Assembly: GCF_018446385.1 (NCBI RefSeq)
Contig: NC_056000.1
Coordinates: forward strand, 52,298,722 to 52,362,721
Length of the DNA stretch: 64,000 nt
Direction: 5' to 3'
DNA from: Zingiber officinale
Taxonomy: Eukaryota > Streptophyta > Magnoliopsida > Zingiberales > Zingiberaceae
Both the position numbers and the translations under genes were made by a program. Below are positions 6,318 to 34,933 of the stretch, in pieces. The notes under the pieces are model-generated. The model was not told where the DNA came from. It ran no database searches and saw only the letters and a list, made by a program, of their open reading frames with translations. Position 1 is the stretch's first letter; each line of letters opens with the position of its first letter.

Positions 6318-6418
6318 ATTGGAGGAAACACGTTTTAGTATATGTGTTTGAGAAATGGTATGATAGTAGAATGAAAATCTTGTAGCATAATGTGTCTATA
6401 TATATTGTTTTTCTCATG

Positions 6419-6655: not shown

Positions 6656-6766
6656 AAAATTATAATAATTAAAACTTACATTAATCGAAATGAGAAATAC
6701 AATAATTAAAAATTACAATCACTCGAAAATATAATAATACTAGAAAATGAACGTTTAGTAAACAAT

Positions 6767-8033: not shown

Positions 8034-8500
8034 TTCGGATAAAAAATAAGATGGTAGGAACTTGAAAAAATAGATGGAGAGAGAATTTAGAGAGTAGAAT
8101 TGAAAGAGTAGTGAGTTGGAATGAAAATATGTGTAAATATTGATGGATATTTATAGATGAAATTTTGAACTAGCCGTTAACTAGCCGTTAAAAAACTAAC
8201 CGTTATTACCTTTTTAATTTTATAATTTATAAATTTTTTAATAAATAAAATTTTAAAATTATATATATAACATGGGTGGGCTAGACTAACCGTTATTACC
8301 TTTTTTAATTTTATAATTTATAAATTATTTAATAAATAAAATTTTAAAATTATATTTATAACATGGGGTGGGCCAGCCCTGGGCCACCCCATGAAGCTTG
8401 AATGCGTTCAAGCGATTAATTTTAACGCGACGTTCTGCAACGCCGCATCAAAGCTATAGTGACGTAATAACGCCGCTTTAACGCGGCGTTGCGGATGCTC

Positions 8501-8933
8501 TAAGAGAAGAAGAAAGAAAGAGTGTTATAATGGAAGCCACGAGATGCCTTAGTTCAGTCACTCCGATGTTTAAATCAGTTTCCGACGGCGGAGAAAAAGA
8601 GAAGATGAGCAATAGAGGAAAGGTGAATATTTGTGTGTACGAATGGGTAGGTGTATCTTTGTCCGCGGGATGGTTCCTTTATAATACTACTAAAGGAGAG
8701 ATAATATCTCTTTCTTTATTAATTGGATGTCATGTCATAGTAGAAAAACATTATATCACTATATCTATGCTATATAGTACAATCACATCACTTATATCCT
8801 ATATCTGTATAATCATACTACCTCATGCGCCACCCCATTTGTTCTGTCAATCCAAGTGCTGGTATAAGCTCATGGTTAGTTGGGCTAAAGAGATGAATTG
8901 ACTCGAATGGCATGAGTGTGTCAGAATAATGAA
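8501..8933 (+). other. Flank of the Harbinger pair with a possible short exon
   Basis: After the TAA at 8501-8503 comes a purine-rich leader and an ATG at 8530 (MEATRCLSSVTPMFKSVSDG). After about 30 codons, at ATGAGCAATAGAGGAAAG, comes a GT that could be a splice donor (8622), and the sequence turns AT-rich. This could be the first exon of a host gene, but no following exon or family match is seen. A long read-through frame to 8901 is composed of AT-rich, intron-like sequence. Confidence 0.25.
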
Positions 8934-9345
8934 GCTGAGTAGGGTGTCTAGTAGATCGATTGGAGGAGTCAGGCGACTGGATCTGATCGAGCGAAGCAGT
9001 ATGTTAGGGGACTTGAGCCCTTGGAGTCAGGCGGAATGACTGGAGAGAACTGAGTGGAACTGACTGAGCAGAGAAGATTGTTGGGGGAGCTGAGTTTGTG
9101 GAGTCAGGTAGATCGATTGGAGTAATCGATTGGAACTGACTAAGCGGAGCAGGTTGTCGGGAGAGCTGATCCCTTGGAGTTAGACAGAGGAACAGAGTGG
9201 AACTGAGCGGCGTAGGTTACCTGGGACCAATGTTCCTGGAGTCGGGCGGATTGATTGGAGGAATTGAATGGAACTGACAAAGCTGAGTAGGTTGTCGGGA
9301 GAGTTGAGCCCCTAGAGTTGGACGAACCAACTGGAATAATCGGGT
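8934..9345. repeat. Degenerate minisatellite, 58-77-bp unit
   Basis: Six degenerate copies of a G-rich unit. The anchor ggagtcaggcgg recurs near 8965, 9023, 9100, 9176, 9238 and 9315, with shared inner words such as tggaactgactgagc and gttgtcgggagagctgagccc. Spacing alternates between about 60 and 77 bp. No coding capacity. Confidence 0.7.
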
Positions 9346-11641: not shown

Positions 11642-14600
11642 TGTAAGTATTCCATGGTATTTTTGATGTGATTAACCAAGTTAAGTTAGGTCCTGTTGTA
11701 TTTCGATCCTTGTGTTTAAGTATGCAGGAACTTAGAAAAACATGAAGTTGAGCGAAAGATGCAGCTAGCGAGAAGGACAGACGGGAGAAAGTCGACGGGC
11801 TTAGTGTGCCTGAGGGACGTGGTGCTACAAAAGAGTACGTTGGCAGACGAGAATGAAGTGCGTGGCATTTTTTAGGGACGAGAAGCCAGAGCAGAAGCTT
11901 GCTCAAGGAAAAGGCCAGAAAAGAGGTTGGGGTGAGCCCTATTTTGGATGAGTGAAATCATCCAAACGAACGGAGTTGAATCGGAGTAGAACCGGGCAAT
12001 CAACAAGATGTTGACTGTCTGGGAGCTTGGACCAAGTCCAGGTGCTCAAATGCTCTGAGCTCCCGGACCCCTGGGTTAGCCCAGGGGCACCTCGCCACCC
12101 GCCTCATTGAGGAAGGATGTCCGGGCGCCCAGACCAGGATAAAACTTTACTGTTTATCCGTTGCATAGTCGTTTGCGAGACGATAAGATTTGTCATGTTG
12201 GGGGCGCTAGGAGAGTGTCAGGGCTCCTGGACTGTGCCATGTCAACAAATGGCTAGTTTCGACCAGTGGACTATAAATAGAGGTCTAGTCTTTTCCTTTT
12301 CGAACAACAGATTTTGTACTTTAAGTATTCTTTCTGTCTTTCATTTTTGAGTGTCATTTCAGTGTTAGAAGCTTCTCCGCCTCTGACATTTTGTTTGAGA
12401 AAGAGATTTTTCTACTGAGCTGACTTTCCTTGGAATAACAATCTTATAATTACAAACCAAGTAAAAAATTTATATGTCTTGTACCTTTCTTTAATTCCTT
12501 TATATTTTGTTTAAGTGTGTAATTAATAAAGCCCGATTATTTGAGAAAGATGTTTGCTATTTTGTTTTGTGCTAGGAAATTCACGCCCTCTTGACGACCA
12601 TAAGAGACTAACAATTAGTATCAGAGTCCAACTGCTTCAGAAGGACTAACCATCGAATGAAGCACAAAAGACGATGGTCGGAACAAGTATCCATCAGTTG
12701 AAGTTTAAGGGAGACTTCATACAATGGAAGAAGAAGATGGAGGTTTATTTCAAAACTGATTTTGATATATTTCTTATCTTAAAAAATGGTTTTGCAATAC
12801 CTACTGACAACAACAGCGAGTTAAAGAAAGAAGAAAGTTAGACAAAGAAGGAACAAGCCGAGTTTGTGGCCAACGGGAAAGAAGAATTCCATCTACTAAA
12901 TGCATTGCCACCACAAGAGGTAAATAAAATCGGAGTCTATGAGTCTGCAAAAGACCTCTGGGAAAAATTTTCGGAGCTTCATGAAGGATCCTCCGAAACC
13001 AAAATTACAATAAGAGATCTTCTTTGGAATCAACTAATGAATCTGTGACTAAAGGAAGGTAAAACAATTCCTCAACTGTACACCAAGTTAAAGGAGCGGG
13101 TGACCGAACTCACGAATCTCGGAGAAAAGGTAATCAACCGAGATTCGCTAAAGTATGCACTTAATGCTTTTCCTAGAACACCTAAATGGTCAATTCTAGT
13201 AGATGCATATTACATTTCTAGAGACTTAGAGGTAAGTAATTTAGAAGAGCTATTTTCTACATTTAAAATTCATGAGTCTAGATGTGTAGATCTAAAGAAG
13301 GAGTTGAAGCAAAATATTGTATTAGAAGCGAAAATGGACGAACCAGATTTTGAAACATCTCTCGACGATGATAATATGGCATTCACGATAAGGAAGTTTA
13401 AAAGATTTTTTAAAGCTAATAAGTTCAATCAAGTGCAAACCAAAAGAAGGAAAAGGAAAGTGAGGTGTTATCATTACAATGAAGAAGGAGATGCCAAAGA
13501 TAACTATCAAAAACTGAAGAACAAGAACAAGGACAAGAAGAAGGACAAAAGACTGACTCAGAAAAAACAAAAGAACTTAAAAGCAACATGGGATGAAATG
13601 TCATCAGAATCAAAAATTAAATCCTATGTCGGACTTGCGTTGATGGCAAGTCACGAAGGTGATGATGAAGCAACCTCATCTAAGATGAGCATCGAAAGCA
13701 TCGATAAAGGGGGAGCAACGTCAGATGGAAGTAGCACTATAGGAGGAGCTTCAGATAAAGGGATCGACGACGTAAGTCAAATATAGTCTCTACTTCCTGA
13801 TTAACATTACAAGTTTATTAAAATATTGTCCAAAAATTACTGTCAATTAGAAAATGATAATAAATGATTATTAATGGAAAATAAAGAGCTAAAAGGAACT
13901 TCAGCAAAATCGACTAGAAGATTTCGACAAAATAAAAATAGAAAATTAAAAACTGAAAGAATAAATAGAAAATTTTAAAAATTTTGTATATTTGAATTTT
14001 ACTAATTTTAAAAATTATCAAGAACATAATTGACATTTTAGATATAATAAAGGCTAAATTAGAAAATTATCATCAAAATATTTTTCAATTTTTTTTTAAT
14101 TAATCCAGTAGGTAGGAACCTGTATTGAGTTTCAAAATCATGCTTAGATTAAATTTTTATGCATATCTTACTTTAAATTTAATTTAATATTATTTTTACT
14201 TAGAATTATCTAAATAAATTGTATCGTATAATTTCTAGTTGAAATTAATTTGATCTTAATTTTTCCGAGAAAGAAAAGTTCATTACTTATATGTAGAAAA
14301 AATTTTAAATTTTTTTTACCATTGAATTATTTTATATAATTTTTTAACAAAAATTATATTTTTTTAAATATTTCGCAGAGTTATTTTTAAAAACTGCGTG
14401 CGTTGGTTTTCGTGTTTTCTATTTTGCAATTTTTTTAAAGTAGAAAATGACTTTTAGACATTCTTTATTTTTCTAGAAAATACTATCTATTTTTTTTTTA
14501 AGAAACAAATATGAAAAATGTAAACCAAATATCATTTTTCAAAAATAAGTGTTTTTCAAAAAATGGAAATGGAAAATACACAAACCAAATGTATCCTTAT

Positions 14601-16230
14601 TTTTCTGTGAAAGTTTATCATGTTTTTTGTCCATAAAAATATTTTTGAAATTTTTTTTTTTGCCTATTATTGAATTTTTTATGAATTATTTATCCTAATG
14701 CTAATTTTTAAATATTAAAAATTCTCGAATGTTAAATTTTTATAAATTTATTTTTCTGTAAAAATAATTGCCCTATTCTCAGAAAATTTTTTAAAGATTT
14801 TTAAAGTTCAAAAACTATTTTTAATTATTTTTTTAAAGAAACTACATCTTTATGTAGAAATAATTTATTATTGCCTAAATTATTTTTAATTTTTTTTTTT
14901 TTTTGCATATTTTATCTATGCTTTGCATATGTCTATTTAACTAATATAAAAATTTTCATAATTTTTCAGTAATTAAAAATAATTTCTCCAAAAATTATTT
15001 TTACAAAAATCCTTTATAAATCGCAAAAGTTCATATTTTCAAAATTTAAACTTCATAATTTTTTTTTTTGAATGTTAGTAATTTTTTTATCGCTTAGAGA
15101 TTAATTCAAATTTATTTCGAAGTCTTTTTCCAATATTTCTCTTATTTTTAATATGATCAAAAGAGAAGAATTAGAGATTAAGTTTGGACAGAGCGTATAT
15201 TTTTTTATTTTGTATTAAATGTTATTAATTACAATTTATGTACTTGCAATTTTACTGTTATTTATTTTTATTTTACCCTAACTTAATTTGGATTTCTCAC
15301 ATCAAAAAAGGACAGATTGTAAGTATCCCGTGGTAGTTTTAATATGATCCACCAAGTCAAGTTAGGTTCTGTTATGTTTTGATCTTTATGTCTAAGTGTG
15401 CAAGAACTTAGGAGCACAGAAAGTCGAGTGAAAGACACAATTAGCGAGAAGGATGACACGAGAGAGAGTCGACGGGCTCGGTGCGTCTAGGGGACGAGGT
15501 GCTGTGGAAGAGTATGTTGGCGGACGAGAAGGAAGCGCGTGATATTTCCGAAGGACGAGAAACCGGAGCGGAAGCTCGCTCAAGGAAAAGGCCAGAAAAT
15601 GAATTCGGGTGAGCCCTATTCTAGATGACCGAAATCGCCCAAGCGAATAGAGTCAAATCGGAGCAGAATCAAACGGTCAAGTCCAGGCACTAGGATCCCC
15701 TGGGTCAACCCAAGAGCACCTCGACGCCCGCCTTGTCAAGGAAGGGCGTTCGGGCACCCGGACCAATATAAAACTTTACAGTTTATCCATTGTATAGCCG
15801 TTTGCGAGACGATAAGATTTGTCACGCTGGGGGTGCATGGAGAGGGTCCAGGTGTCTGGACCGTGTCATGTCAGTAAACGGTCAATTTCGACTAGTGAAC
15901 TATAAATAGAGCTTGGTCTTCTCCTTTTCGAACAACACACTTTGTACTTCAAGTATTTTTTCTATCTTTCATTTTTTAGCGTCATTTTTATATATAATGT
16001 TTCTCCGCCTCCGACGTTTTATTCAAGGAGAAGATTTTTCTATTAAATCGACTTTTTTTTTTGAAATAACAATCCTCTATTTACAAACTATGTAAAAAAT
16101 TTACGTGTCTGGTATGTTTCTTTAATTCCTTTATATTTTATTTATGTATGTAATCGATAAAATCTAATTATTTGAAAAAGATATTTACTGTTTTACATTA
16201 TACAGGATAATTCATCTCTTCTTATCCTAA
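11642..16230 (+). mobile_element. Gag-only Copia-type LTR retroelement (fossil)
   Basis: The 5' LTR is 11642-12613 (TGTAAGTATTCC to ACTAACA) and contains a TATA box (ctataaatag at 12271-12280). It is followed by a primer-binding site of the initiator-Met type (ttagtatcagagtcca). The 3' LTR starts at 15318 after a purine tract (aaaaaaggacagat) and fades out near 16230. The internal region holds a Copia-style gag relic (about 12674-13786) and then about 1.5 kb of very AT-rich sequence. No integrase, reverse transcriptase or RNase H is recognisable. The two LTRs have diverged visibly (roughly 85% by eye in the TATA region), so the insertion is old. Broken, with a few breaks in gag. I see no convincing target-site duplication. 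Confidence 0.75.
12674..13786 (+). pseudogene. Copia-type gag relic of the element at 11642
   Basis: The reading begins MVGTSIHQLKFKGDF, a Copia gag N-terminus (DUF4219-like). It has the helical UBN2-like block (YESAKDLWEKFSELHEGS), a basic stretch and a degenerate zinc-knuckle region (CYHYNEEGDAKDNYQ). It ends in a Lys- and Ser-rich tail before 13786. It is a broken fossil with few breaks. The family's gag forms the virus-like particle and packages RNA. Confidence 0.7.
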
Positions 16231-18262
16231 TAGCTTGAGCATAGACACATAGCAGTGATAACATGCATGCATCAGAATCACTCTCATGTCTCTGTAATGT
16301 CTACATAATAATGATCCCCAATAAGTGTGATGAATCATGCCTTAACTTCTTTTGTTTTCCATCTTATATAGTCACATCAATCTTGTCGTTCGTTCCTTCA
16401 GAAAGACATTCACACAAGATCACTGTCCATCTCCCTCAAACTGAAACTGACTTGCTATAAATTGGCGTTTTCAAAATTTTCAGTATGAAACAAAATCCTC
16501 ACTGTTTAGTTGTTTGAGTGAACTCGACACTGTCTCGCATTGTAAAAAGCCAAACTATAACTTTCTGACTTTGCCATCGATATCATCCCAAAGCAGCAGC
16601 ACTTGATGTCGGGAAGAAGACGCAAGACTTTCGCACGTACGGTAAAAGGATGTAGTAGATTAAAAAGGTAGATAATTTCATATAACATAGCTAACTGTTA
16701 CACCAATCCAGATACCTGGACTCAGTAGACAGATAATTAGATTCGGCCGGGATGCGGATGCCTTGGCGGTCCAACACCCAGGAACGAGTTGGAGAAGAGA
16801 AGAAGATCCTTGGATGGGCCCTCACTAAGCAGGAAATAATTTACCACGAATCGTAATTGATGTACGTAGTAATGCGAAGAGGTTACAACATCAGGAGACA
16901 AGTAAATAAAAAAGTATAATCCCATATTCATAGGACACACTAATTAGAATTAAACTTCCAATAATCTAAGATCTTCTTCCTCTTTAGTGGCTTAAGCATG
17001 GGAAGACACTTCCAGATGAGAAGGCAAGTCCAAATTGACCGCAACACTAAACTTTTGATCATTTTATCAAGTGTAGAGTGTTACCAAGCATAGCCTTATC
17101 ACATGGACGGGTGAATATATATGTTGAAAATCTAAACCAAATTGCATGCTTAGAAGTCTAAATCAAAAATTAAATTGTGTTTGGACTTCCTTTGTCATGA
17201 CTACATAAGCCCAGCTATAACATAAAAAAAGATATTTAAAAAAAAATTACATTTCTTCAAAAGTTATATTCCTCTTTTAAATTATTATACTCCTCTTCCA
17301 TAATCAAAGGAACTTCCTAGGAAATGACAAAGCTCAACAATCACCTAAACAAACAAATTCACCGACAATAAATTGGAGGATCGGTTGATACAGTGCAAGA
17401 ATCAGTGGGGATGAAACGAAAGTCGACGAACCACCGTTTTAGCAAGGAAATTCAGGATCAAATATACAGATACAAGGGCTTTTTTTTTACACGTATCCAA
17501 TTGGAGTGCACGCTTACAACTGTTTGGAACAGTGATATACCTTTCGGAAAACAGGAAACTCCGCATGCATCAACGGGAAAAGTCGGCCAGTTTCCGCACT
17601 CCTCTCTTTTCCAGGCATCCGTGCCCAGTGTCCTCGATCGGTCAAAACAATCGCATGAGGGAGGCCTCGAGTACGTACGTATGTTACAGCATGCATGACA
17701 ACTCCGAAAGCTGCCGTATTTGTTTCAGCTTTTATCTCCTCCGCTTGGTGTTTGGGAGGAGGAGAAGAGGAAGGCGGAAGGCAAGGCGGTGGATCTGCAT
17801 AGTGTCCCATCGTGCCATGGCAAAGCATGCAAGGCAGGGCGAGCTCATCCATCCATGCAGCATGCTGTTTCCCAATCATACGGCAATCCATGGCTGTATC
17901 ATTTACCTCGATTCGCGTGCTCTCTCTTTCTCCTTGTGGTTGTATTAATTAATCTAGAAGTGGCTTACGTCTCTAGCGAGTTTAATTTTTTTCCTATTCA
18001 GTTTCTTCCTCTCAATTAATGTTTGCCTTTAATTCTCCCTCGTCTGCCTCGTGCCCTTTTCCCGTTTGGGAACAGTGAAGTTCCCACAAGTGGCAAGCAA
18101 AATTAAAAACAAAAACAAAAAGAAAAAAAATAAAAGGGCAAAAACGTCCCTCCAACATCATCTCCCATGCAAACTTTACAAAGATTTATAAAATTAAAAA
18201 ATTTTAATAGAAAAACTTGACTGTAAAAGTGAGGTTTGAAATTTTTAATTAAATAACGATTC

Positions 18263-18269
<7 letters not shown>
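16231..18269. other. Non-repetitive-looking intergenic DNA with a CATGCA-rich GC island
   Basis: 16231-17390 has no coding signal. 17390-17960 is much richer in GC and contains repeated CATGCA/TGCATG words (near 17564, 17691, 17826 and 17855-17867), a pattern of RY-type promoter elements. Overlapping frames on both strands (up to 138 aa) give proteins without recognisable domains, so I do not call genes. It may be a promoter or a lost gene's first exon. It is repeated at 23086-25124. Confidence 0.35.
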
Positions 18270-18293
<24 letters not shown>

Positions 18294-19006
18294 ATAATCA
18301 AATCTTTTCCTATTAGATGAGATCGACTGTATGAATTTTTTTAATCATTGAGTTCTATCTTCTATTATATTATCATCTATATTTAAATAAATTTTATCTT
18401 GTTTTATTGTTCCTAATCAAATCTTTTTTAGTCTTCCTCTTTCTCGTTTGATATGCATGTTTATCATAGTTTCACATCACCTAACTGGAGCATTTATTGG
18501 TCATCTAAGTACATATCCGTACCATCTTAAACGTGTCTCTCGGAGTTTTTTCTCAATAGATGCAACTTCGACTTTCTCTCTAATGCTTCCATTTCTTATT
18601 TTGTCCATCCTCGTATGTCTACACATCGACCTTAACATCCTCATCTCTGCAACTCTCATCTTCTGCTCATGTGTTTGAGTCATAGTTCAACATTTAGCTC
18701 CATATAACATAACAGGTCTAACTACGATTTTATAGAACTTACCTTTAAGTTTAAGAGATAATTTACGGTCACATAAAACACTCGACGCTCCCCTCCATCT
18801 CACTCATCCTGCTTGTATTCTATGTAAGACATCTTTCTCAATCCCTCCATCATTTTGCAAAAATGATCCTAAATATTTAAATCTCTCGGTTCCGGACAAC
18901 TCGTCCTCTCCTATCTTAACAATTGTATCATTACTTCTAATATTACTAAACTTAAATTCCATATATTATGTCTTTAATCTACTAAGCTTAAAATCTTTCC
19001 CTTCTA
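18270..19006 (-). mobile_element. RTE-type LINE, 3' end only (unit 1 copy)
   Basis: Minus-strand 3' part of the LINE described at 25125-28388, cut at 19006 by the duplication joint. It encodes the C-terminal end typical of plant RTE proteins (RMLRSMCRHTRMDKIRN, RETRLRWYGYVLR; 18501-18683). On its own strand it ends in an ATT microsatellite tail (18270-18298). Confidence 0.85.
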
Positions 19007-22000
19007 GTTTATCCGTTGCATAGTCGTTCGCGAGACGATAAGATTTGTCATGTTGGGGGCGCTAGGAGAGTGTCAGGGCTCCTGGACTGTGCCATGTCAA
19101 CAAATGGCTAGTTTCGACCAGTGGACTATAAATAGAGGTCTAGTCTTTTCCTTTTCGAACAACAGATTTTGTACTTTAAGTATTCTTTCTGTCTTTCATT
19201 TTTGAGTGTCATTTCAGTGTTAGAAGCTTCTCCGCCTCTGACATTTTGTTTGAGAAAGAGATTTTTCTACTGAGCTGACTTTCCTTGGAATAACAATCTT
19301 ATAATTACAAACCAAGTAAAAAATTTATATGTCTTGTACCTTTCTTTAATTCCTTTATATTTTGTTTAAGTGTGTAATTAATAAAGCCCGATTATTTGAG
19401 AAAGATGTTTGCTATTTTGTTTTGTGCTAGGAAATTCACGCCCTCTTGACGACCATAAGAGACTAACAATTAGTATCAGAGTCCAACTGCTTCAGAAGGA
19501 CTAACCATCGAATGAAGCACAAAAGACGATGGTCGGAACAAGTATCCATCAGTTGAAGTTTAAGGGAGACTTCATACAATGGAAGAAGAAGATGGAGGTT
19601 TATTTCAAAACTGATTTTGATATATTTCTTATCTTAAAAAATGGTTTTGCAATACCTACCGACAACAACAGCGAGTTAAAGAAAGAAGAAAGTTAGACAA
19701 AGAAGGAACAAGCCGAGTTTGTGGCCAACGGGAAAGAAGAATTCCATCTACTAAATGCATTGCCACCACAAGAGGTAAATAAAATCGGAGTCTATGAGTC
19801 TGCAAAAGACCTCTGGGAAAAATTTTCGGAGCTTCATGAAGGATCCTCCGAAACCAAAATTACAATAAGAGATCTTCTTTGGAATCAACTAATGAATCTG
19901 TGACTAAAGGAAGGTAAAACAATTCCTCAACTGTACACCAAGTTAAAGGAGCGGGTGACCGAACTCACGAATCTCGGAGAAAAGGTAATCAACCGAGATT
20001 CGCTAAAGTATGCACTTAATGCTTTTCCTAGAACACCTAAATGGTCAATTCTAGTAGATGCATATTACATTTCTAGAGACTTAGAGGTAAGTAATTTAGA
20101 AGAGCTATTTTCTACATTTAAAATTCATGAGTCTAGATGTGTAGATCTAAAGAAGGAGTTGAAGCAAAATATTGTATTAGAAGCGAAAATGGACGAACCA
20201 GATTTTGAAACATCTCTCGACGATGATAATATGGCATTCACGATAAGGAAGTTTAAAAGATTTTTTAAAGCTAATAAGTTCAATCAAGTGCAAACCAAAA
20301 GAAGGAAAAGGAAAGTGAGGTGTTATCATTACAATGAAGAAGGAGATGCCAAAGATAACTATCAAAAACTGAAGAACAAGAACAAGGACAAGAAGAAGGA
20401 CAAAAGACTGACTCAGAAAAAACAAAAGAACTTAAAAGCAACATGGGATGAAATGTCATCAGAATCAAAAATTAAATCCTATGTCGGACTTGCGTTGATG
20501 GCAAGTCACGAAGGTGATGATGAAGCAACCTCATCTAAGATGAGCATCGAAAGCATCGATAAAGGGGGAGCAACGTCAGATGGAAGTAGCACTATAGGAG
20601 GAGCTTCAGATAAAGGGATCGACGACGTAAGTCAAATATAGTCTCTACTTCCTGATTAACATTACAAGTTTATTAAAATATTGTCCAAAAATTACTGTCA
20701 ATTAGAAAATGATAATAAATGATTATTAATGGAAAATAAAGAGCTAAAAGGAACTTCAGCAAAATCGACTAGAAGATTTCGACAAAATAAAAATAGAAAA
20801 TTAAAAACTGAAAGAATAAATAGAAAATTTTAAAAATTTTGTATATTTGAATTTTACTAATTTTAAAAATTATCAAGAACATAATTGACATTTTAGATAT
20901 AATAAAGGCTAAATTAGAAAATTATCATCAAAATATTTTTCAATTTTTTTTTAATTAATCCAGTAGGTAGGAACCTGTATTGAGTTTCAAAATCATGCTT
21001 AGATTAAATTTTTATGCATATCTTACTTTAAATTTAATTTAATATTATTTTTACTTAGAATTATCTAAATAAATTGTATCGTATAATTTCTAGTTGAAAT
21101 TAATTTGATCTTAATTTTTCCGAGAAAGAAAAGTTCATTACTTATATGTAGAAAAAATTTTAAATTTTTTTTACCATTGAATTATTTTATATAATTTTTT
21201 AACAAAAATTATATTTTTTTAAATATTTCGCAGAGTTATTTTTAAAAACTGCGTGCGTTGGTTTTCGTGTTTTCTATTTTGCAATTTTTTTAAAGTAGAA
21301 AATGACTTTTAGACATTCTTTATTTTTCTAGAAAATACTATCTATTTTTTTTTTAAGAAACAAATATGAAAAATGTAAACCAAATATCATTTTTCAAAAA
21401 TAAGTGTTTTTCAAAAAATGGAAATGGAAAATACACAAACCAAATGTATCCTTATTTTTCTGTGAAAGTTTATCATGTTTTTTGTCCATAAAAATATTTT
21501 TGAAATTTTTTTTTTTGCCTATTATTGAATTTTTTATGAATTATTTATCCTAATGCTAATTTTTAAATATTAAAAATTCTCGAATGTTAAATTTTTATAA
21601 ATTTATTTTTCTGTAAAAATAATTGCCCTATTCTCAGAAAATTTTTTAAAGATTTTTAAAGTTCAAAAACTATTTTTAATTATTTTTTTAAAGAAACTAC
21701 ATCTTTATGTAGAAATAATTTATTATTGCCTAAATTATTTTTAATTTTTTTTTTTTTTTGCATATTTTATCTATGCTTTGCATATGTCTATTTAACTAAT
21801 ATAAAAATTTTCATAATTTTTCAGTAATTAAAAATAATTTCTCCAAAAATTATTTTTACAAAAATCCTTTATAAATCGCAAAAGTTCATATTTTCAAAAT
21901 TTAAACTTCATAATTTTTTTTTTTGAATGTTAGTAATTTTTTTATCGCTTAGAGATTAATTCAAATTTATTTCGAAGTCTTTTTCCAATATTTCTCTTAT

Positions 22001-23085
22001 TTTTAATATGATCAAAAGAGAAGAATTAGAGATTAAGTTTGGACAGAGCGTATATTTTTTTATTTTGTATTAAATGTTATTAATTACAATTTATGTACTT
22101 GCAATTTTACTGTTATTTATTTTTATTTTACCCTAACTTAATTTGGATTTCTCACATCAAAAAAGGACAGATTGTAAGTATCCCGTGGTAGTTTTAATAT
22201 GATCCACCAAGTCAAGTTAGGTTCTGTTATGTTTTGATCTTTATGTCTAAGTGTGCAAGAACTTAGGAGCACAGAAAGTCGAGTGAAAGACACAATTAGC
22301 GAGAAGGATGACACGAGAGAGAGTCGACGGGCTCGGTGCGTCTAGGGGACGAGGTGCTGTGGAAGAGTATGTTGGCGGACGAGAAGGAAGCGCGTGATAT
22401 TTCCGAAGGACGAGAAACCGGAGCGGAAGCTCGCTCAAGGAAAAGGCCAGAAAATGAATTCGGGTGAGCCCTATTCTAGATGACCGAAATCGCCCAAGCG
22501 AATAGAGTCAAATCGGAGCAGAATCAAACGGTCAAGTCCAGGCACTAGGATCCCCTGGGTCAACCCAAGAGCACCTCGACGCCCGCCTTGTCAAGGAAGG
22601 GCGTTCGGGCACCCGGACCAATATAAAACTTTACAGTTTATCCATTGTATAGCCGTTTGCGAGACGATAAGATTTGTCACGCTGGGGGTGCATGGAGAGG
22701 GTCCAGGTGTCTGGACCGTGTCATGTCAGTAAACGGTCAATTTCGACTAGTGAACTATAAATAGAGCTTGGTCTTCTCCTTTTCGAACAACACACTTTGT
22801 ACTTCAAGTATTTTTTCTATCTTTCATTTTTTAGCGTCATTTTTATATATAATGTTTCTCCGCCTCCGACGTTTTATTCAAGGAGAAGATTTTTCTATTA
22901 AATCGACTTTTTTTTTTGAAATAACAATCCTCTATTTACAAACTATGTAAAAAATTTACGTGTCTGGTATGTTTCTTTAATTCCTTTATATTTTATTTAT
23001 GTATGTAATCGATAAAATCTAATTATTTGAAAAAGATATTTACTGTTTTACATTATACAGGATAATTCATCTCTTCTTATCCTAA
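19007..23085 (+). mobile_element. Gag-only Copia-type element, duplicated copy with cut 5' LTR
   Basis: Copy of 12152-16230 inside unit 2. The 5' LTR lacks its first 510 bp because the duplication breakpoint lies within it. The gag relic is at about 19529-20641 and the 3' LTR runs from about 22173. It arose by segmental duplication and not by a new insertion: the flanks are duplicated with it. Confidence 0.85.
19529..20641 (+). pseudogene. Copia-type gag relic, duplicated copy
   Basis: Practically identical to the gag relic at 12674-13786, offset 6,855 bp, with the same gag blocks (YESAKDLWEKFSELHEGS and CYHYNEEGD). A broken fossil in the same state as its twin. Confidence 0.75.
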
Positions 23086-25117
23086 TAGCTTGAGCATAGA
23101 CACATAGCAGTGATAACATGCATGCATCAGAATCACTCTCATGTCTCTGTAATGTCTACATAATAATGATCCCCAATAAGTGTGATGAATCATGCCTTAA
23201 CTTCTTTTGTTTTCCATCTTATATAGTCACATCAATCTTGTCGTTCGTTCCTTCAGAAAGACATTCACACAAGATCACTGTCCATCTCCCTCAAACTGAA
23301 ACTGACTTGCTATAAATTGGCGTTTTCAAAATTTTCAGTATGAAACAAAATCCTCACTGTTTAGTTGTTTGAGTGAACTCGACACTGTCTCGCATTGTAA
23401 AAAGCCAAACTATAACTTTCTGACTTTGCCATCGATATCATCCCAAAGCAGCAGCACTTGATGTCGGGAAGAAGACGCAAGACTTTCGCACGTACGGTAA
23501 AAGGATGTAGTAGATTAAAAAGGTAGATAATTTCATATAACATAGCTAACTGTTACACCAATCCAGATACCTGGACTCAGTAGACAGATAATTAGATTCG
23601 GCCGGGATGCGGATGCCTTGGCGGTCCAACACCCAGGAACGAGTTGGAGAAGAGAAGAAGATCCTTGGATGGGCCCTCACTAAGCAGGAAATAATTTACC
23701 ACGAATCGTAATTGATGTACGTAGTAATGCGAAGAGGTTACAACATCAGGAGACAAGTAAATAAAAAAGTATAATCCCATATTCATAGGACACACTAATT
23801 AGAATTAAACTTCCAATAATCTAAGATCTTCTTCCTCTTTAGTGGCTTAAGCATGGGAAGACACTTCCAGATGAGAAGGCAAGTCCAAATTGACCGCAAC
23901 ACTAAACTTTTGATCATTTTATCAAGTGTAGAGTGTTACCAAGCATAGCCTTATCACATGGACGGGTGAATATATATGTTGAAAATCTAAACCAAATTGC
24001 ATGCTTAGAAGTCTAAATCAAAAATTAAATTGTGTTTGGACTTCCTTTGTCATGACTACATAAGCCCAGCTATAACATAAAAAAAGATATTTAAAAAAAA
24101 ATTACATTTCTTCAAAAGTTATATTCCTCTTTTAAATTATTATACTCCTCTTCCATAATCAAAGGAACTTCCTAGGAAATGACAAAGCTCAACAATCACC
24201 TAAACAAACAAATTCACCGACAATAAATTGGAGGATCGGTTGATACAGTGCAAGAATCAGTGGGGATGAAACGAAAGTCGACGAACCACCGTTTTAGCAA
24301 GGAAATTCAGGATCAAATATACAGATACAAGGGCTTTTTTTTTACACGTATCCAATTGGAGTGCACGCTTACAACTGTTTGGAACAGTGATATACCTTTC
24401 GGAAAACAGGAAACTCCGCATGCATCAACGGGAAAAGTCGGCCAGTTTCCGCACTCCTCTCTTTTCCAGGCATCCGTGCCCAGTGTCCTCGATCGGTCAA
24501 AACAATCGCATGAGGGAGGCCTCGAGTACGTACGTATGTTACAGCATGCATGACAACTCCGAAAGCTGCCGTATTTGTTTCAGCTTTTATCTCCTCCGCT
24601 TGGTGTTTGGGAGGAGGAGAAGAGGAAGGCGGAAGGCAAGGCGGTGGATCTGCATAGTGTCCCATCGTGCCATGGCAAAGCATGCAAGGCAGGGCGAGCT
24701 CATCCATCCATGCAGCATGCTGTTTCCCAATCATACGGCAATCCATGGCTGTATCATTTACCTCGATTCGCGTGCTCTCTCTTTCTCCTTGTGGTTGTAT
24801 TAATTAATCTAGAAGTGGCTTACGTCTCTAGCGAGTTTAATTTTTTTCCTATTCAGTTTCTTCCTCTCAATTAATGTTTGCCTTTAATTCTCCCTCGTCT
24901 GCCTCGTGCCCTTTTCCCGTTTGGGAACAGTGAAGTTCCCACAAGTGGCAAGCAAAATTAAAAACAAAAACAAAAAGAAAAAAAATAAAAGGGCAAAAAC
25001 GTCCCTCCAACATCATCTCCCATGCAAACTTTACAAAGATTTATAAAATTAAAAAATTTTAATAGAAAAACTTGACTGTAAAAGTGAGGTTTGAAATTTT
25101 TAATTAAATAACGATTC

Positions 25118-25124
<7 letters not shown>
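23086..25124. other. Duplicate of 16231-18269, including the CATGCA-rich island
   Basis: Same content as the unit 1 interval. The GC island is at about 24245-24815. No gene called. Confidence 0.4.
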
Positions 25125-25148
<24 letters not shown>

Positions 25149-28100
25149 ATAATCAAATCTTTTCCTATTAGATGAGATCGACTGTATGAATTTTTTTAAT
25201 CATTGAGTTCTATCTTCTATTATATTATCATCTATATTTAAATAAATTTTATCTTGTTTTATTGTTCCTAATCAAATCTTTTTTAGTCTTCCTCTTTCTC
25301 GTTTGATATGCATGTTTATCATAGTTTCACATCACCTAACTGGAGCATTTATTGGTCATCTAAGTACATATCCGTACCATCTTAAACGTGTCTCTCGGAG
25401 TTTTTTCTCAATAGATGCAACTTCGACTTTCTCTCTAATGCTTCCATTTCTTATTTTGTCCATCCTCGTATGTCTACACATCGACCTTAACATCCTCATC
25501 TCTGCAACTCTCATCTTCTGCTCATGTGTTTGAGTCATAGTTCAACATTTAGCTCCATATAACATAACAGGTCTAACTACGATTTTATAGAACTTACCTT
25601 TAAGTTTAAGAGATAATTTACGGTCACATAAAACACTCGACGCTCCCCTCCATCTCACTCATCCTGCTTGTATTCTATGTAAGACATCTTTCTCAATCCC
25701 TCCATCATTTTGCAAAAATGATCCTAAATATTTAAATCTCTCGGTTCCGGACAACTCGTCCTCTCCTATCTTAACAATTGTATCATTACTTCTAATATTA
25801 CTAAACTTAAATTCCATATATTATGTCTTTAATCTACTAAGCTTAAAATCTTTCCCTTCTAGTGTTTCCCTCCAAGATTCTAGTTTAGCATTTACTCCTT
25901 CACGTGTCTCATCTACCAAAATAACATCATCTGCAAACAACATGCACCACAGTACTGTGTCTTGAATGTGCGTAGTGAGTTCGTCCATAATTAGTGTAAA
26001 AAGATAAGGACTTAGAGCTGATCCTTGATGTAACCCTATCTTTATTGGAAATATTTCAGTTACTCCGACTGAAGTTTTTACTCTGGTTGTTACATCTTCA
26101 TACATATCCTTAATTAGTTTAATATATGTTATACTAACACCTCTCTTTTCTAAAATTCTCCATATAATTTTTCTTGGGACTCTATCATAAGGTTTTTCTA
26201 AGTTAATGAATATCATATGTAGATCTTATTTTTGCTCCCGATATTTTTCAATTAATTGTCTAAGAAGATGTATAGCTTCTATTGTCGACCTTCCAGGCAT
26301 GAACCCAAATTAATTTTTTATCACTTTGATCTTCTTCTTTAATCTTTTTTCTATTACTTTTTCCCAAAGTTTCATAGTATGACTCATTAGTTTAATACCC
26401 CTATAGTTTGCATAATTTTGTACGTCTCTCTTGTTCTTATATAAGGGAACTAGAGTACTTATCCTTCATTGATCAGACATTTTTTTCGTTTTCAATATCA
26501 TGTAATAATTTTGTAAGTCATTCAATACCTTATTTCCCTAAGCACTTCCATACCTCTATCATAATATCATCTGGTTCAACAGCTTTTCCATTGTGCATCT
26601 CATTTAAAGTTTATTTTACTTCTGAAATTTGAATTCTACGATAAAAATTAAAATTTCTATGCTCATTTGACCTAATTAAATTATCTAAGTTAAGCTGGTC
26701 ACTTAAACCTTCATTAAAAAGTGGATGAAAATACCTCTTCCACCACTCTTTTATTTCTCCATCGTTTACTAATATCCTATTACTTTCATCCTTAATAAAT
26801 TTTATTTGGGTAAGATCTCTTGTTTTCTTTTCTCTCACTTTAGCTATTATATAGATGTCTCTTTCTCCTTCTTTTGTATCCAATTTTTGATATAATCATT
26901 CAAAAATTTTATTTTTTCCTTCAGTCACTACTTTCTTAGCTTCTTTCTTGACTATTGTATATTTTTTTAAGTTTTTCTCGTTCTTACAAATATATAATTC
27001 CTTATAAGCTACACATTTTCCTTCACTTTCTCTTGCATTTTCTCATTCCACCACCAAGATTCCTTACTTAGTGGTACATGTCTTTTTGACTCACTAAGTA
27101 TACTCTTAGTTACTATTTTTAACTTTGATGTCATCTTATTCCATGTTGTATTAGAGTCATCGTATATTTCATCTAATGCTTGTACTTCTACCTTCTCCTT
27201 AAATATATTTTTCTTCTCATCCTTTAACTTCCACCACTTAATTGTAGGAATTGTATATATTTTTTTTCTATTGATACTATGTTTGATACGTATATCCAAT
27301 ACTATTAACGTATGTTGGTAGTTAAGCTTTCTCTAGGGATGACTTTGCAATCTTTATAAATCTTTCTATCCTTCTTCCTAACCATAAGAAAGTCAATTTG
27401 TGATTTATTATTCTCACTTTTGAATGTGACTAAGTGTTCTTCTCTTTTCTTAAAAAACGTATTAGCTAATATAAGGTCATATGCTATCGCAAAATCTAAT
27501 ATAGTTTTCCCTTCCTCATTCCTCGTTCCAAACCCATAACTCCCATGTACTCTCTCATATTCCTCATTTTTCACTCCAACATGCCCATTTAGATCACCTC
27601 CTATTAAAATCATTTCATTTGGTGGAATATTTTGTAATATTTCATCTAAGTCCTCCCAAAACCTTGATTTGGTAGCTTCATCTAATCCTACTTGTGGTGC
27701 ATATACGCTAATTATGTTCATAGTTTCTTTCGCCACTATTATCTTAAGGGCTATAATTCTATCCCCTTTTCTAACTACTCCTACAACTTCATCCTTTAAC
27801 AAACTATCTACAATAATAGGCACTCTATTTCTTACTTTACTCTTTCTAATGTATCATAACTTAAAACCTGAGTTCTCTATCATCTTTGCCTTCTCGCCTG
27901 TCTATTTTGTCTCTTGTACACACAAAATATTAATTTTTCTCCTAATCATCATATCTACTACCTCCATTGATTTACTAGTGAGAGTTTCTATGTTCCATGT
28001 TTCAAATCTTAGATTAGTTTTCCTATCATATTTGTTCTTATCCAACCTATGGTGTAAGAACTTTTGCCTATTTAACACTACACCCAAGTTCTCATGGAGA

Positions 28101-28388
28101 TGTAGCGGTCCTTGTTGAGACGTTACAATCAGACCCTGTAACGCGAACTCTTGCATATTTAACACTACACTCGAGTTCTGGAGATGTAGCGATCCTTGCC
28201 GAGACGTTACAATCAGACCCTACAACGCGCTCTTTTCGGGGAACAACCTAGCATTAGCACAATAGTTTAATGGATTCATTTAATATTTGTCATAGTTTGA
28301 CGCTGGCTGGCAACCTAACGCAACCCTCCTCCTTTATCCGGGCTTGGGACTGGCCATGATCGGTCGTCATGGGCGGAGTTTAACGATA
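25125..28388 (-). mobile_element. RTE-type LINE, near full length, broken
   Basis: Minus-strand non-LTR retrotransposon. Going 5' to 3', a leader from about 28388 (with an internal tandem repeat), then an AP-endonuclease domain (TWNIETLTSKSMEVVDMM, CVQETK; then GGDLNGHVG and QIDFLMVRKKDRK, 28165-27305). A linker follows (27299-26611), then reverse transcriptase ([41 protein letters not shown]; 26216-25821), and the short RTE C-terminal motif (25538-25356). It ends in an ATT tail (25125-25153). The pieces lie in several frames with stops between, so at least five breaks. RTE elements encode one endonuclease/RT protein and move by target-primed reverse transcription. Confidence 0.9.
28060..28235 (-). 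repeat. Tandem repeat in the LINE 5' leader
   Basis: A unit of roughly 85-90 bp (anchored by gagatgtagcg, gagacgttacaatcagaccct and tttaacactacac) occurs twice, at about 28064-28145 and 28153-28235. It lies at the start of the RTE coding region. Confidence 0.7.
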
Positions 28389-28394
28389 CTAAAA

Positions 28395-28395
<1 letters not shown>

Positions 28396-28440
<45 letters not shown>
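28396..28440. repeat. (TA)n microsatellite
   Basis: About 22 TA repeats, immediately outside the 5' end of the LINE. Other (TA)n runs are at about 34938-34985 and 41180-41205. Confidence 0.95.
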
Positions 28441-28444
<4 letters not shown>

Positions 28445-30151
28445 ATGAGCTCATAATTAATAATAAAATAACATCAATTATGAGATGATTATAAAAACTC
28501 ATTTTTATATCATATTTTATTATTAATAAAAAATAAAGTTGGTTATTATATTTATTTCAGTTCAGTGTTGATTGAATAAATATAATAATATCATTGGGTA
28601 GTAAGTTCTTATCTACAACATATCAATTGGTTGAATTGATAGTGAGATTGTAACTATATATAGAAAACTACTCTTAACTATTCCTAGTCAAGCATTAATA
28701 TACAAGAACAATATTAATACGTTGAGACTAGCATGTAGATCAACGGATAACTTAATCTCACAAGCCATGGATATGAGATATCAGGTTGACACATGAGTAT
28801 ATATTAGAGAATATATACTGAATAACCCTCCATGAGAATGTTTCATGGATCGTTATATAAGTGTCATATTCATTCTCATGTGACTATTGGTATGAATAGT
28901 CTTTAGACCTGAAGTCACTACGGTTCCCTACATAAGGAGTTATGTACTTTGGTATCGACAAACATCACCTGTAACAAAGTGGACAATAAAGTCGATTACT
29001 GGGTATGCAATGAATTATGTGAAGAGATGTGAGTGAGGTAGATGAGATCTATCCCTTCCATATGACAAAAGTGATATTTGAGAGTCCCTTGATTAGTAGG
29101 ACACAAGAAAGCATGACAATACACAAATGAATGAATATGAGATATTGAGCTTATTTGATTAAGTGTGTCTACTTAGAGATCAAGAAACACAAAGGTGGAT
29201 AATAGGATGACACGGTCTATGCCTTATTAATCAATCTAGATATCAAAAATAGAGGGGCAAAGTCATATAAGATAATAGTCTCAGACAGGTTAGATCGGAT
29301 CTCGACTTTCTCATCACTTGGATAGCAATGATACCTTGCTAGATGTCACTCATTACTTTGTATCAAAATGTTGATTTGGATACATTGCCAACGTTACGAG
29401 AACCTATTGGGTCACACACAAAGAATAAGTTAATTTAGAGATAGATTCATGTGATGGGTCATTGAATTAAATCTAATTCAAATTAGACTAATTGAGTTAG
29501 ACTCAATTGGATCTAATTATTGGATTAAGTCTAATTTGAATTAGATTCATGGAGCCAATTTGGATTGATGTTCATGGAGCCAATTTAGATTGATATGGTT
29601 CAATGAGTTAGACTCATTGGGTGATGGTTCAATGAGTTAGACTAATTGGGTGAACTTGAGTTCACTAAGGAAGATGAATAGTCATCAAGGAATATGAATA
29701 GTCAATTTTACACTATTGGATTGAATGGTCAATTTTGAACCATTAGATTGGAAGATGAAAGGGTAAAACCCTTTGATATTCATGAGATTGATATAAATGA
29801 AAATTTATGGATGATAATTTTATTAGATGAAAAACTTTTCTTCTTCTTCTTCCTCATCTTGGCCGAATATTGACCTTGTGGTTGCTAGCACAACCAAAGG
29901 TTGTTACTTTTTCCACTTTGTGAGTTTGTGAGACAAACGAGAAGCTTGTTCGTGTGGATACGGTTAGAGGTGTAAATGCTTGATTATGCTGAGATCCTAG
30001 TTGTCGGGAGATCGTGTGCACGCACCAAAAGTATAACTATCATGAAACTTAGTATAGATGCCTATTTATTCTTCACTTCGCATGGATCCTCTTGATAAGG
30101 AACTAGATGTTTTTCGCTGTGCTTTCACATGTTTAGCGCCCTAGTTCCTTA
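28441..30151 (+). mobile_element. Probable Ty1-copia (SIRE-like) LTR, solo or truncated (fossil)
   Basis: Non-coding 1.7-kb block with the style of a long Copia LTR. The middle (about 29330-29420) has the block on not-far-spaced words gatgtcactcattactttg, gatttggatacattgcc and aacctattgggtcaca seen in plant Copia LTRs. A run of related attgg/agactaattgagtta repeats lies at 29460-29650. The end (about 30080-30151) reads gtgctttcacatgtttagcgcc and closes near agttccttaca. The left edge is uncertain and may be hidden by the TA run. No coding parts. Confidence 0.4.
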
Positions 30152-31763
30152 CACCCATTTGTCGCACGGGACGAGGACTCTATCTTTGGTGGGATATGCA
30201 AATTTCGTCTGGATGATTATCCACATCTTGACTTGTGTCTTGAGGTAGTACTCCATTCGACTTTTCCAATAGCCGAAGTCTTTGCCGGCGAAGAGGGGAG
30301 GGCGTGCAGTGTTATACCCCTCTTGGTAGGTCATAAAAAATAATCTTGCACAAACAACAAAAATAGAACTTGTCCCAAGATTAGGTCTTGCTTTAGTAGT
30401 ATAGAATAAAGTATTAATCAAATAAACGAACTCGAGTGGTGTTGCACTAGTTTTGAGAAGAAAGCTCAAGTACGATAAAATTGATCAAAATGAGGCAACT
30501 GTATCGATTCCGATTGACTCCAAAAAATTTAAAATCTAATACCACGAAAAAAAGCTTGCTTGAATGGTGATTTCACTGATTCGAAACGATCCTGCCCTGA
30601 TACCAATTGTAGGATCGTTGCATTAGAGGGGGGTGAATAGTGCTCGTGAATTTCACGTCCGTATAAAAATGTTCAAGTTAAGATGCAGCGGGATAAGAAA
30701 GAAAAGAAAGAAAGTAACAAGGCAATCACAAATACCAAGAGTTACTTGCTTCGGATCCTATGGCAACTCTTATTCCAAGGCCCTCACGTGAGAGTGCTTT
30801 CGTTAGGTAATTCACTATCAGTTCCGAATAAGTACAAATATGGAATTACAATATTAAAACAACTGTAAAATGAAAATACCGACAACTACAGATCTAAAAA
30901 TTCTTGTTCTTGGTCGTCAGAGCAACGTTTGGGCATCGAGGAGGTGTTTTCTGAGTAGCGTGCAAGAGTAGAAGTCGTTCTGAATGTTATTTTTTAGCCC
31001 CTGGTTGAATGCTACTTATATAGGCTGTTCCAGGCGCTTGGACCCCCTCCGGGCACCTGAACCACGTGTCCTGGCCAATTGACGCACTTTATGTAGGCTT
31101 ATGGATGATTTTTCGAGTCTGGGTGCCTAGACCGCCTGGGCGACTACCGCCTGCCCTGGGCAAGGCTAGTCCGAGTCCCCCGGACCAATTTTTTTCAGCC
31201 TTATTTTTTTTCTTCAAAACGAAGTTAGTATGGGCAATAAACAATACATATAATATAAATTTGACGGCCTCTGACTATCCGTTCTGACTTTGAGTTTCGT
31301 TGAAACTCTAGGTCGAACCGATGCTTACTGTTTCCTTTTTCAAGGAACGCGTCATCACCTATTCCTCTCAGGAGAGTTTACTTTTTGCCAGATCGGTCCT
31401 CCACGACCGTTTGGACTTTTGCTCAACATCTGAGACTTCAAGCCTTCATGCTGAACGTCCGCTCCATGACCCGTCCAGACTTCTACCTAGTCTGCGACCA
31501 CTAGGATTTTCACCTAGAGTCCCCGACTCTAGGATTTTGCCCAAAGTGCTCGATCTGCCAAAACTTCGCCTTGCCTAACTACAGTTAGGACTTTCCACCA
31601 CCTAGAGTTACTTCTTCCTAGGACCTGGGGTTACCTCCCCTACGGTTTTCACCTACCTAGCTAGAATTCACTAGGACTTTCCCGTAAGCTCATTCAACCT
31701 TGTTAGATAACAAGTAATCTTAACTTTCGACCCTTTTTCATAATCAAGATTTAGGTTCGATCA
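30149..31763 (-). mobile_element. Copia-type element, 5' LTR plus start of gag (fossil)
   Basis: Minus-strand element. Its LTR occupies 30608-31763 (1,156 bp; on the plus strand it starts TGTAGGATCG). Next to it is a primer-binding site seen on the plus strand as ctgataccaatt (30597-30608). A Copia gag N-terminus follows (YNTARPPLFAGKDFGYWKSRM, 30149-30350). The rest of the element is gone, replaced by the LTR-like block to the left. This LTR is the family member that identifies the solo LTRs at 39696 and 42820. Broken and truncated. Confidence 0.75.
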
Positions 31764-33136
31764 TAAAATATTAGATATAAAATATTTAATTGATGAATTG
31801 TACATTTTACATCAATCCAAAGTATAAATGAGATGTGCCAGAATTAGTACTATATGAGGAGAGAAATCTACAATAGATTGATAGGTTAGATGTACACCTC
31901 AAAAATATATATATATTTTTTCTAATTTCATAAATTCTTTTGATATTTTGAAGTTTATTTATTTAATTTTTAATTTTTTTTATGAAATATAATTTAAAAC
32001 AGTTTTTTATATTTTAAAATTGTTGTCTAGCTTATCATGATAGGCTAGGCATGACCAAACAAGAGCAACTAGACATGGCTCCACCTAAGTTGGCCAAAAT
32101 TGGGCATGAGCTATAAGATGAGGCATCCTAAGCATGACCACCCATGCACAGCTTAGGCATGATCGATATCGCTAAAAATATTAATTAAGGTCAATTTCTT
32201 TTGACTTTATTATATATATTGTAAGAGTTATGCCCATTAATCGAAAGGTAATTAACTCAGATGTCGAGTATAATATAACACATTTATTTATTTTACTTAA
32301 TTAATGAATTATTAAAACTCATGGATCAACTTGTGCACAAACAAGGTTGTAATCCCTTAAAATTAATGACACTTTACTTGAACAACACTTGGAAATGAAT
32401 TAGTACTCCAATGGTGATGGAGTTACACTCAATACAACCAAGTTGCAATTGATCAATATATTTCTCAAATAGAACAACACTAGAAAGAGAGTTTATATCA
32501 ATGCAAAATATAGGTTTGTGGAGGTTAATATTCAACGTGATCGAGTAATCATTTAATAAATATAGCAGATGAATTAGACGAGCCTTTTGTTCTAGTAGTA
32601 GAGGAGTATAATATAGAGATGTTTGATAGAGAATTAACATTTCTTACAAGTGAGACATCTTCATCATACCAACCTAATGATAGTGACAATAACTTTTTGA
32701 ATATATATGAGTCTAAGGAAAGAAAATGATAAAGCTATTGAGGCAGTCCAACCAGCAAAGATGAGTAAACATGAACAAATATGTGACTTTAGCACTCAAG
32801 TATAAAGGTTCCAATTCACATTGCTTATTTACCTAAAAAATTATTTTCCTACTTTGTCCTTGCAAGACTTATTTCAAGGATAAAGTAGTATTAATATTTT
32901 AAAAAAATATGGTGCAAAAATAACAAGTAAACATACTATTTTCTCAAAAAAAAAAAAAAAATCTAAGCATGTGCTCCTTGTTGGTTTGTGTTGAAGTTGC
33001 ACCCTTTGTTGTTCCCATAGCCAAATAGCATTTTCTTAACAAAGAGTTTGACTCTAACACAAATTCTTTTAGGTGATGATGCTTACATTTTCTAACAAAA
33101 TAGTATGTCTATATGCTTCAAATCTATAAAATTCAG
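31764..33136. other. AT-rich intergenic, nothing recognised
   Basis: No coding signal. 32035-32165 repeats words such as taggctaggcatgacc, gcatgagc and cttaggcatgatcg, a short local repeat cluster. A frame at 32374-32640 (minus) has no domain. Confidence 0.4.
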
Positions 33137-33350
33137 CCCCCAGGGTAATACTATGGCGACAGGAGTACCTTCTCATATTCTATGCATTTAAGGATCGAGT
33201 CTTAACCTCGATAAATTAGGATGAATTTTTCTTAATGAATAGTTGGCCTAAAAATAGGTTGATGGGCTGCATGCCCCATGAGAGTGTTTCTCGATTTACC
33301 CTAGTGACCGGTGGAAAACTTCTGTATGACCTGACTGATTAGCCTTAGGT
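33137..33350 (+). mobile_element. Probable tRNA-derived SINE
   Basis: A 210-bp block with a Pol III B-box-like word (ggatcgagtct at about 33193) and a body resembling plant SINEs (gtttctcgatttaccctagtgacc, ttggcctaaaaatagg). The A box is weak. Compare the related worn block at 45935-46100 (tttaccctatt). Confidence 0.5.
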
Positions 33351-34933
33351 TTAGTTGCATAAGTTAGATATCAGGTACTAACTGAAAAAATCTCTAAAAT
33401 ACATGATTAATTTTAAAAATTGATCTCTTTTTATTTTAATAGTATCTTATATTATTAAGGAATGAACATTCTTTTTTTTTTAACTTTACCTAATTTGATG
33501 TAGAGGTGCAAATGAACCGGGCCAAGTGAAGCTTAGTTGTATTCAAGTTTATTTATTTACTTATTAAGTTTATTCAAGCTTGTTTATTAAAAATCTTATT
33601 GAGTTTGAGCCAAACTCAAGCTTGTTCGTGAATATTGTTCAAACTTTTAATGAGCTCAATTGTCAATATTGTTATAATTTTTTTTTATCTATTTATGAAC
33701 TTTATACTATTTTTAACATATCATGAATACTATATTTGAAAAGAACACAAAAAAATTTACAAAATTTTCATGAACATTTTCATATATATAGTATTTTTAA
33801 AATTAAATTTTATATAAGTTAATAAATAAGTTTATTTATAAATTATTCATGTGCATAATTTTTTTAACATTATCCAAGAACATTGTTCATGAACGATATT
33901 GAACCAAGTTCACTAGTGTTCAAGTTTATTTATTTTATATTTTACAATTGAACAAAATTTAATGGGTTTTATAGAATTGAACACCAAGCTTGGTGATGAA
34001 TAACTGATTCATTTACAACTCTATTTTTATGTATTCTTTATATATCATGAAGTTTTCTTTTGTGTATGTTCACTATATATATATCTACAATTGATATGTC
34101 TAAATGCTAATGTAGGTCTCAATAAACATGAGTTAACACTCTCGAGTAGCCTCACCCCAACAATTACCACCCTCTGACGAGTGGCCTCCTAATTGTCATG
34201 CACATTATTATCCTCGCAGTTGTGTATTCTTTTGATAAAATATATTTATATTAGAAATTTAGGGTTATAATTTTAATTATAAAAGTCTAATGTCAACAAT
34301 TAAATAAGTTATAATTTAATGTGATCAAATTTATAATTAAGGAATATAACTTAAGGTTTTAATTGTTATGAATATAATAATGTGGATACTATATGTAATT
34401 TCTAATTTGTCGAGGGGTTAAATTAGAAAAAAGTAAACTTAGGCATTATGTTTTGTTTCCTATAGACAAAATTCTTTGGATATTAGGAAATCTATAAATT
34501 AAAGATCATCATCCAAGATTAACTACAAATTATGGATTTTGGTATGCTCCCACAATTCTGATTATTATGTTTATGATTTCTTAAGAATTGGATAGAATTT
34601 AGTATTTTATGTTGGGATTTTGTCAATCCATAATTCCATCAATTTACCCTTTTATCATCATCTTCTAACTTTGATGAGCCATAATCTAGCTAGGCCACGA
34701 GCTACTATGGCATACTAATAGGGACATCCGGTATGACCATTGAAGGGAGGGACAAGGTGAATGATATATCCAATTAAGCAAATAAAAAGAATAACACTTT
34801 TGAGCAATTTCTCTACCAAAAGGGCAAAGTCCCATTGGTGTAAGTAGATATAAGAAATGGTGTATGAAATCTCTAGGATCAATTATTCCTCGTCATACAA
34901 CATGTACACTTGGTTGATTTAAAATTAAAAAAG

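Follow-up and report, generated by a model that had tools for sequence, protein, structure and literature searches.

A near-perfect 6,855-bp tandem repeat in a diploid ginger assembly is probably a false duplication

Introduction

Does the near-perfect 6,855-bp tandem repeat seen on one homologue of the ginger (Zingiber officinale) genome exist in the plant, or was it made during assembly? The repeat lies in a stretch of 64,000 bp, C15:52298722-52362721 (NC_056000.1; here called the window), and the original prediction had left the choice open between a recent end-joining or replication-slip duplication and an artefact. If the repeat is an artefact, it is a warning that overlapping contigs can pass for near-perfect tandem copies when a highly heterozygous plant is assembled from nanopore reads without phasing, and that counts of haplotype structural variants or of gene copies would include such overlaps; 17,445 duplications between ginger haplotypes are reported in the available text of PMC8342452. 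If real, it is a young tandem duplication, of a known kind, on one haplotype of a clonal crop, and useful for gauging somatic structural mutation.

The tandem unit and its joint

The two copies were compared directly at an offset of 6,855 bp, and the unit and its joint are laid out as follows.

12152..19006, plus strand: copy 1 of the 6,855-bp unit, by self-comparison at offset 6,855
19007..25861, plus strand: copy 2, with two substitutions and no indels relative to copy 1
19006..19007, no strand: joint between the copies, with GT common to both ends (19007-19008 = 12152-12153 = 25862-25863)

Window positions 12152-19006 and 19007-25861 were identical at 6,853 of 6,855 positions in an ungapped comparison, a match that is impossible by chance. 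The near-perfect tandem predicted at 12152-25861 was thereby reproduced to the base, and the count of mismatches called for at the time came to two substitutions (12174/19029 and 12805/19660) without a gap. No other near-perfect repeat was listed in the self-comparison of the window at a length of at least 300 bp and an identity of at least 95%, its sole additional row being an inverted pair of 930 bp at 92%. The entire 64,000-bp window contained no N letters.

At the edges, the match between copies extended 2 bp (GT) beyond the right end, to 25862-25863, and halted immediately on the left, where 12151 is T and 19006 is A, bearing out the prediction of a 2-bp joint at 19006/19007 with only GT in common. 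When 100,000 random pairs of positions were drawn from this window, 18% shared homology of 2 bp or longer; because of this, the 2-bp edge homology is unremarkable and gives no support for a repair origin. Homology beyond the chance level, as an end-joining reading might have shown, was not found at the joint, which has 2 bp only.

The edges of the unit lie inside unrelated elements

Annotation of the sequence at and inside the unit gave the following features.

11642..12592 (3' limit approximate), plus strand: left long terminal repeat (LTR) of an old, degraded LTR retrotransposon, by LTR-LTR alignment; the unit begins within it
15318..16223 (limits approximate), plus strand: right LTR of that retrotransposon, entirely within the unit and repeated at +6,855
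13049..13786, plus strand: 245-aa open frame lying between the two LTRs, with no Pfam family at E 0.001
25821..26225, minus strand: LINE reverse-transcriptase fragment (PF00078, E 3.3e-16 for the stretch scanned); the unit end at 25861 falls within this frame
27305..27853, minus strand: LINE endonuclease frame (PF14529) in the right flank of the unit

Both breakpoints thus sit inside elements, as had been proposed, the left edge within an LTR and the right edge within a LINE reverse-transcriptase frame. This layout bears on whether homologous unequal exchange, between LTRs or otherwise, or a transposition produced the second copy. The unit does hold one complete LTR and part of another, with a LINE at its other edge; however, its edges fall in unrelated sequences that have 2 bp in common, and long homology at both edges was absent, GT alone being shared between the LTR on one side and the LINE on the other. 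The two LTRs, which align at 75% identity, are spaced by approximately 3.63 to 3.68 kb, and exchange between them would give that period rather than 6,855 bp. No target-site duplication was found at the unit edges beyond the 2 bp, and the edges are not at element ends. We therefore give these mechanisms next to no chance, and both LTR-LTR recombination and transposition are rejected on account of GT-only edges within unrelated elements, in agreement with the earlier argument that the edges share only GT and that no element ends there.

The homologue carries the unit once

On sequence grounds, C15 and C16 are a homologous pair, because unique DNA of the window matches C16 at 96% and 99%. Window 4453-19014 aligned in one piece, across the left breakpoint at 12152, with C16:45171831-45186403 at 94.7% identity, and window 19453-26874 aligned across the right breakpoint at 25861 with C16:45180003-45187408 at 94.9%. 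C16 is thus continuous through both breakpoint regions in these alignments and has the unit once, approximately 5% diverged from C15. In a search of the genome, the core of the unit was matched over its full length twice on C15 and once on C16; the remaining matches were short and approximately 77 to 91% identical. For a segment of the right flank, C15 has one near copy and C16 has two, all other scored matches being at 83% or less (40 of 12,048 candidates scored). The joint sequence had no match among plasmid records at megablast sensitivity, a set that is a poor place for plant DNA.

Since C16 has a single copy, the duplication either occurred on the C15 side once the two haplotypes had split or does not exist; if real, it would be very young and limited to a single haplotype. 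Gene conversion that kept an older duplication identical on C15, together with its loss from C16, would also leave one copy on C16, and loss between identical copies is scarless. That history would nevertheless need a conversion both complete and recent, plus the extra loss, given that the copies are 2/6,855 apart while each is approximately 5% from C16. We consider it very improbable, and an old duplication as such is rejected, the difference between copies lying far below that between haplotypes.

A second tandem joint on C16 near the same breakpoint

C16 has a tandem arrangement of its own beside the right breakpoint.

Window 25825..33637, plus strand: segment present tandemly twice on C16, at C16:45186352-45199035 including a 4.85-kb insert, then from C16:45199036

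The first C16 copy corresponds to window 25818-33637, lies at C16:45186352-45199035, and differs from the window by approximately 5% throughout. The second adjoins it directly from C16:45199036, with no N letters at the joint, and the whole arrangement spans C16:45186352-45206826. The second copy differed from window 25825-29950 at 1 of 4,126 positions; beyond 29950, it switches back and forth, some blocks resembling C15 and others the first C16 copy. In a three-way alignment with 312 variable gap-free columns (sums over the printed blocks, with 74 gapped columns left out), the second copy followed C15 in 208 columns and the first C16 copy in 99, was private in 5, and gave no three-state column.

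The second C16 copy is probably a mis-phased extra copy, that is, a false duplication with phase switches, because a real copy 3 to 4% from its neighbor should carry many private bases. A patchwork with few private bases is as expected from mixed-haplotype contig ends followed by polishing. Alternatively, the other homologue could have contributed to the patchwork through recent gene conversion or exchange, which would require several switches in approximately 4 kb. A real, independent second copy on C16 is unlikely, with private bases in 5/312 of the variable columns. To judge from the available text of Ko et al. (2022; PMC9516828), the second C16 copy fits the class of heterotype false duplications, a mix of both haplotypes behind true C16 sequence, whereas the C15 copies, both of one haplotype, do not fit that class.

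The insert itself, at C16:45187409-45192257, has inverted ends of the CACTA type and probably a target duplication of 3 bp; it occurs in the first C16 copy and is missing from both C15 and the second C16 copy.

A distance of 37 bp separates the right end of the C15 duplication, 25861, from the start of the patchwork copy, which lies inside the duplicated unit at window position 25825. By a crude reckoning, computed with 43 bp, the odds of a start this near any of the three unit edges are approximately 0.4% (0.0041), and because of these odds it is probable that one cause, such as a contig break, lies behind both the C15 and the C16 joint. Contigs ending here in both haplotypes would be the simplest such cause; less directly, a true repeat may have upset the assembly at its edge. 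It is also conceivable that both homologues were truly rearranged at one place, the LINE reverse-transcriptase stretch at 25825-25861 being a fragile site in a sterile clonal plant, so that C15 doubled 6.9 kb leftward and C16 gained a 7.8-kb rightward copy templated by C15, hence the patchwork; we find this hardly credible.

The two differences between the copies

The two substitutions that separate the C15 copies were placed against C16 and, for the first site, against the wider LTR family.

12174 / 19029: T in copy 1 and in C16, C in copy 2; 19029 is the 23rd base after the joint
12805 / 19660: T in copy 1 only, C in copy 2 and in C16, by comparison of the copies with C16

At the first site, T was present in 29 of 30 loci of the LTR family, these being the loci retrieved from 40 scored matches (977 candidates), and the lone C was copy 2 itself. 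When the six loci that belong to this locus and its homologue were set apart, all of the remaining 24 had T; the C at 19029 is thus private to copy 2. So near a false joint, short reads are unable to bridge it, and polishing is at its weakest. Around the second site, the copies equal C16 for 85 bp leftward and 99 bp rightward, and the difference could come from a genuine C-to-T mutation at a CpG or from polishing with reads from the other haplotype.

Both differences lie within the unit's first 654 bases, an arrangement with a chance of approximately 1% for that end and approximately 2% for either end. As a yardstick, one haplotype rendered twice, in C15 and in C16 over window 25825-29950, differs at 1/4,126 positions, compared to 2/6,855 between the copies; since the rates are comparable, the divergence of the copies is explicable without real mutations.

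Assembly of the two haplotypes

We infer that the sequence comes from the diploid assembly of the 'Zhangliang' ginger by Cheng et al. (2021; PMC8342452). As described in the available text of that paper, both homologues of each pair were assembled separately, from nanopore (ONT) reads corrected with Canu, using the assemblers SMARTdenovo and wtdbg2 and no phase-aware assembler; repeated polishing with short reads comprised seven rounds of Pilon and later five of NextPolish. A draft of 1,185 contigs with an N50 of 5.74 Mb was scaffolded with 3D-DNA, gaps were closed in two rounds with LR_Gapcloser, and the final assembly had 796 contigs, an N50 of 12.68 Mb, and 577 gaps (PMC8342452). Several hundred gaps may therefore have been closed without N letters. 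LR_Gapcloser, in the available part of its description, fills a gap from reads extending to its two edges, with a length tolerance of 20%; the case of overlapping contig ends was not found discussed in that part.

According to the available text of Ko et al. (2022; PMC9516828), earlier vertebrate assemblies contained 4 to 16% false duplication, mostly from mixed haplotypes, and the false copies were adjacent, usually with a gap in between and in some cases joined by incorrect gap filling. A true tandem duplication of one allele was also found there, so the class is not always false.

A false duplication or a recent real one

In our judgment, the 6,855-bp tandem on C15 is probably an assembly artefact, a false duplication of the 'homotype' kind made from overlapping contig ends that were butt-joined and left unmerged, and the haplotype in the sequenced plant most likely has a single copy of the unit. 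On this reading, one contig of that haplotype would have ended at 25861 and a second begun at 12152, their overlap of 6,855 bp would have been left unmerged, and Hi-C scaffolding would have placed them side by side. The gap between them would have been closed without N letters, the end of one unit copy being butted onto the start of the other, and short-read polishing would then have brought both copies to near identity.

This reading is favored because the artefact-type joint on C16 starts 37 bp from the same breakpoint, because the homologue holds one copy with both breakpoints uninterrupted, because the differences between copies match the rate of the two-renderings yardstick, and because the private base at 19029 sits so close after the joint. 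It is favored as well because the pipeline, in the published description available, lacked a phase-aware assembler and combined repeated gap closing and polishing with a rise in contig N50 from 5.74 to 12.68 Mb, and because published false duplications are adjacent and sometimes come about by incorrect gap filling (PMC9516828). Two signs of a false duplication are present at this locus: the adjacent copies are near-identical at the level of consensus error (2/6,855 versus 1/4,126), and there is one copy on C16 and no second copy elsewhere, with a mosaic C16 copy 37 bp away as a mark of misassembly. As for a gap between the copies, no N stands at the joint, and the assembly was, by its available description, gap-closed twice. 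The likeness to the homotype false duplications of Ko et al. (2022; PMC9516828), as far as their available text describes them, extends to adjacent near-identical copies on one scaffold of a heterozygous, gap-filled long-read assembly and to the lack of a second-haplotype signal between the copies; unlike those cases, the C15 joint has no remaining gap letters.

The main contender, which we regard as rather unlikely, is that end joining between 25861 and 12152 produced a real tandem duplication very recently and on just one of the homologues. A break or stalled fork would have undergone microhomology- or polymerase-theta-type repair in which sister or re-replicated DNA was joined at a homology of 2 bp, and the product would have gained two substitutions since and been kept in a clonally propagated plant. 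Exact tandem order, the 2-bp edge homology, presence on one haplotype, and two substitutions of the C/T type all agree with such an event, and the difference at 12805/19660 looks like an ordinary CpG mutation, which speaks against an artefact. So would nanopore reads, which, if long, would easily span 6.9 kb and let the assembler resolve a real repeat correctly; the lack of N letters in the window is a further point on this side. The 37-bp coincidence, moreover, could follow if a real duplication had itself upset the assembly at its edge. At substitution rates of 1.3e-8 and 6.5e-9, a real duplication would be approximately 11,000 to 22,000 years old (95% limits, 1,400 to 81,000), and the same rates place the haplotype split at 1.5 to 3 million years.

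Against a real duplication stand the nearness of the C16 joint (within 37 bp), a yardstick rate equal to that between the copies, the private base beside the joint, and the expectation of 2-bp homology at 18% of random joints. In brc-1 Caenorhabditis elegans, the tandem duplications made by polymerase theta measure 1 kb to 1 Mb, mostly approximately 10 to 20 kb, and have microhomology at the joint, as given in the available text of PMC7368036; the C15 repeat resembles these in its head-to-tail order, kilobase scale, and 2-bp homology, but a random butt joint would give identical joint features here. In the same text, 240 generations of wild-type worms yielded no tandem duplications (PMC7368036). 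Altogether, the earlier view that the copies are too alike to be old holds, and the evidence from C16 tips the balance, which had been left open between a recent duplication and an artefact, to the artefact.

Other features of the window

Several further elements were seen in the window. The inverted pair noted in the self-comparison (58400-59326 and 61943-62872, 930 bp, 92% identity) stands around frames that by eye resemble fragments of Copia-type retrotransposons, and the frame at 61804-62199 gave no Pfam family. A minus-strand frame at 38252-38854, which is 99% identical on C16, has by eye a likeness to KANADI/GARP-type DNA-binding proteins, with no Pfam family as scanned. A PIF/Harbinger-type element at approximately 630-4452 is present on C15 and missing from C16, with Plant_tran (PF04827) in frames 3032-3481 and 3485-4057, and a related copy lies in inverted orientation at approximately 5161-8016. 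Window 6417-6612 is a tandem array of 14 copies of a 14-bp unit with 81% matches.
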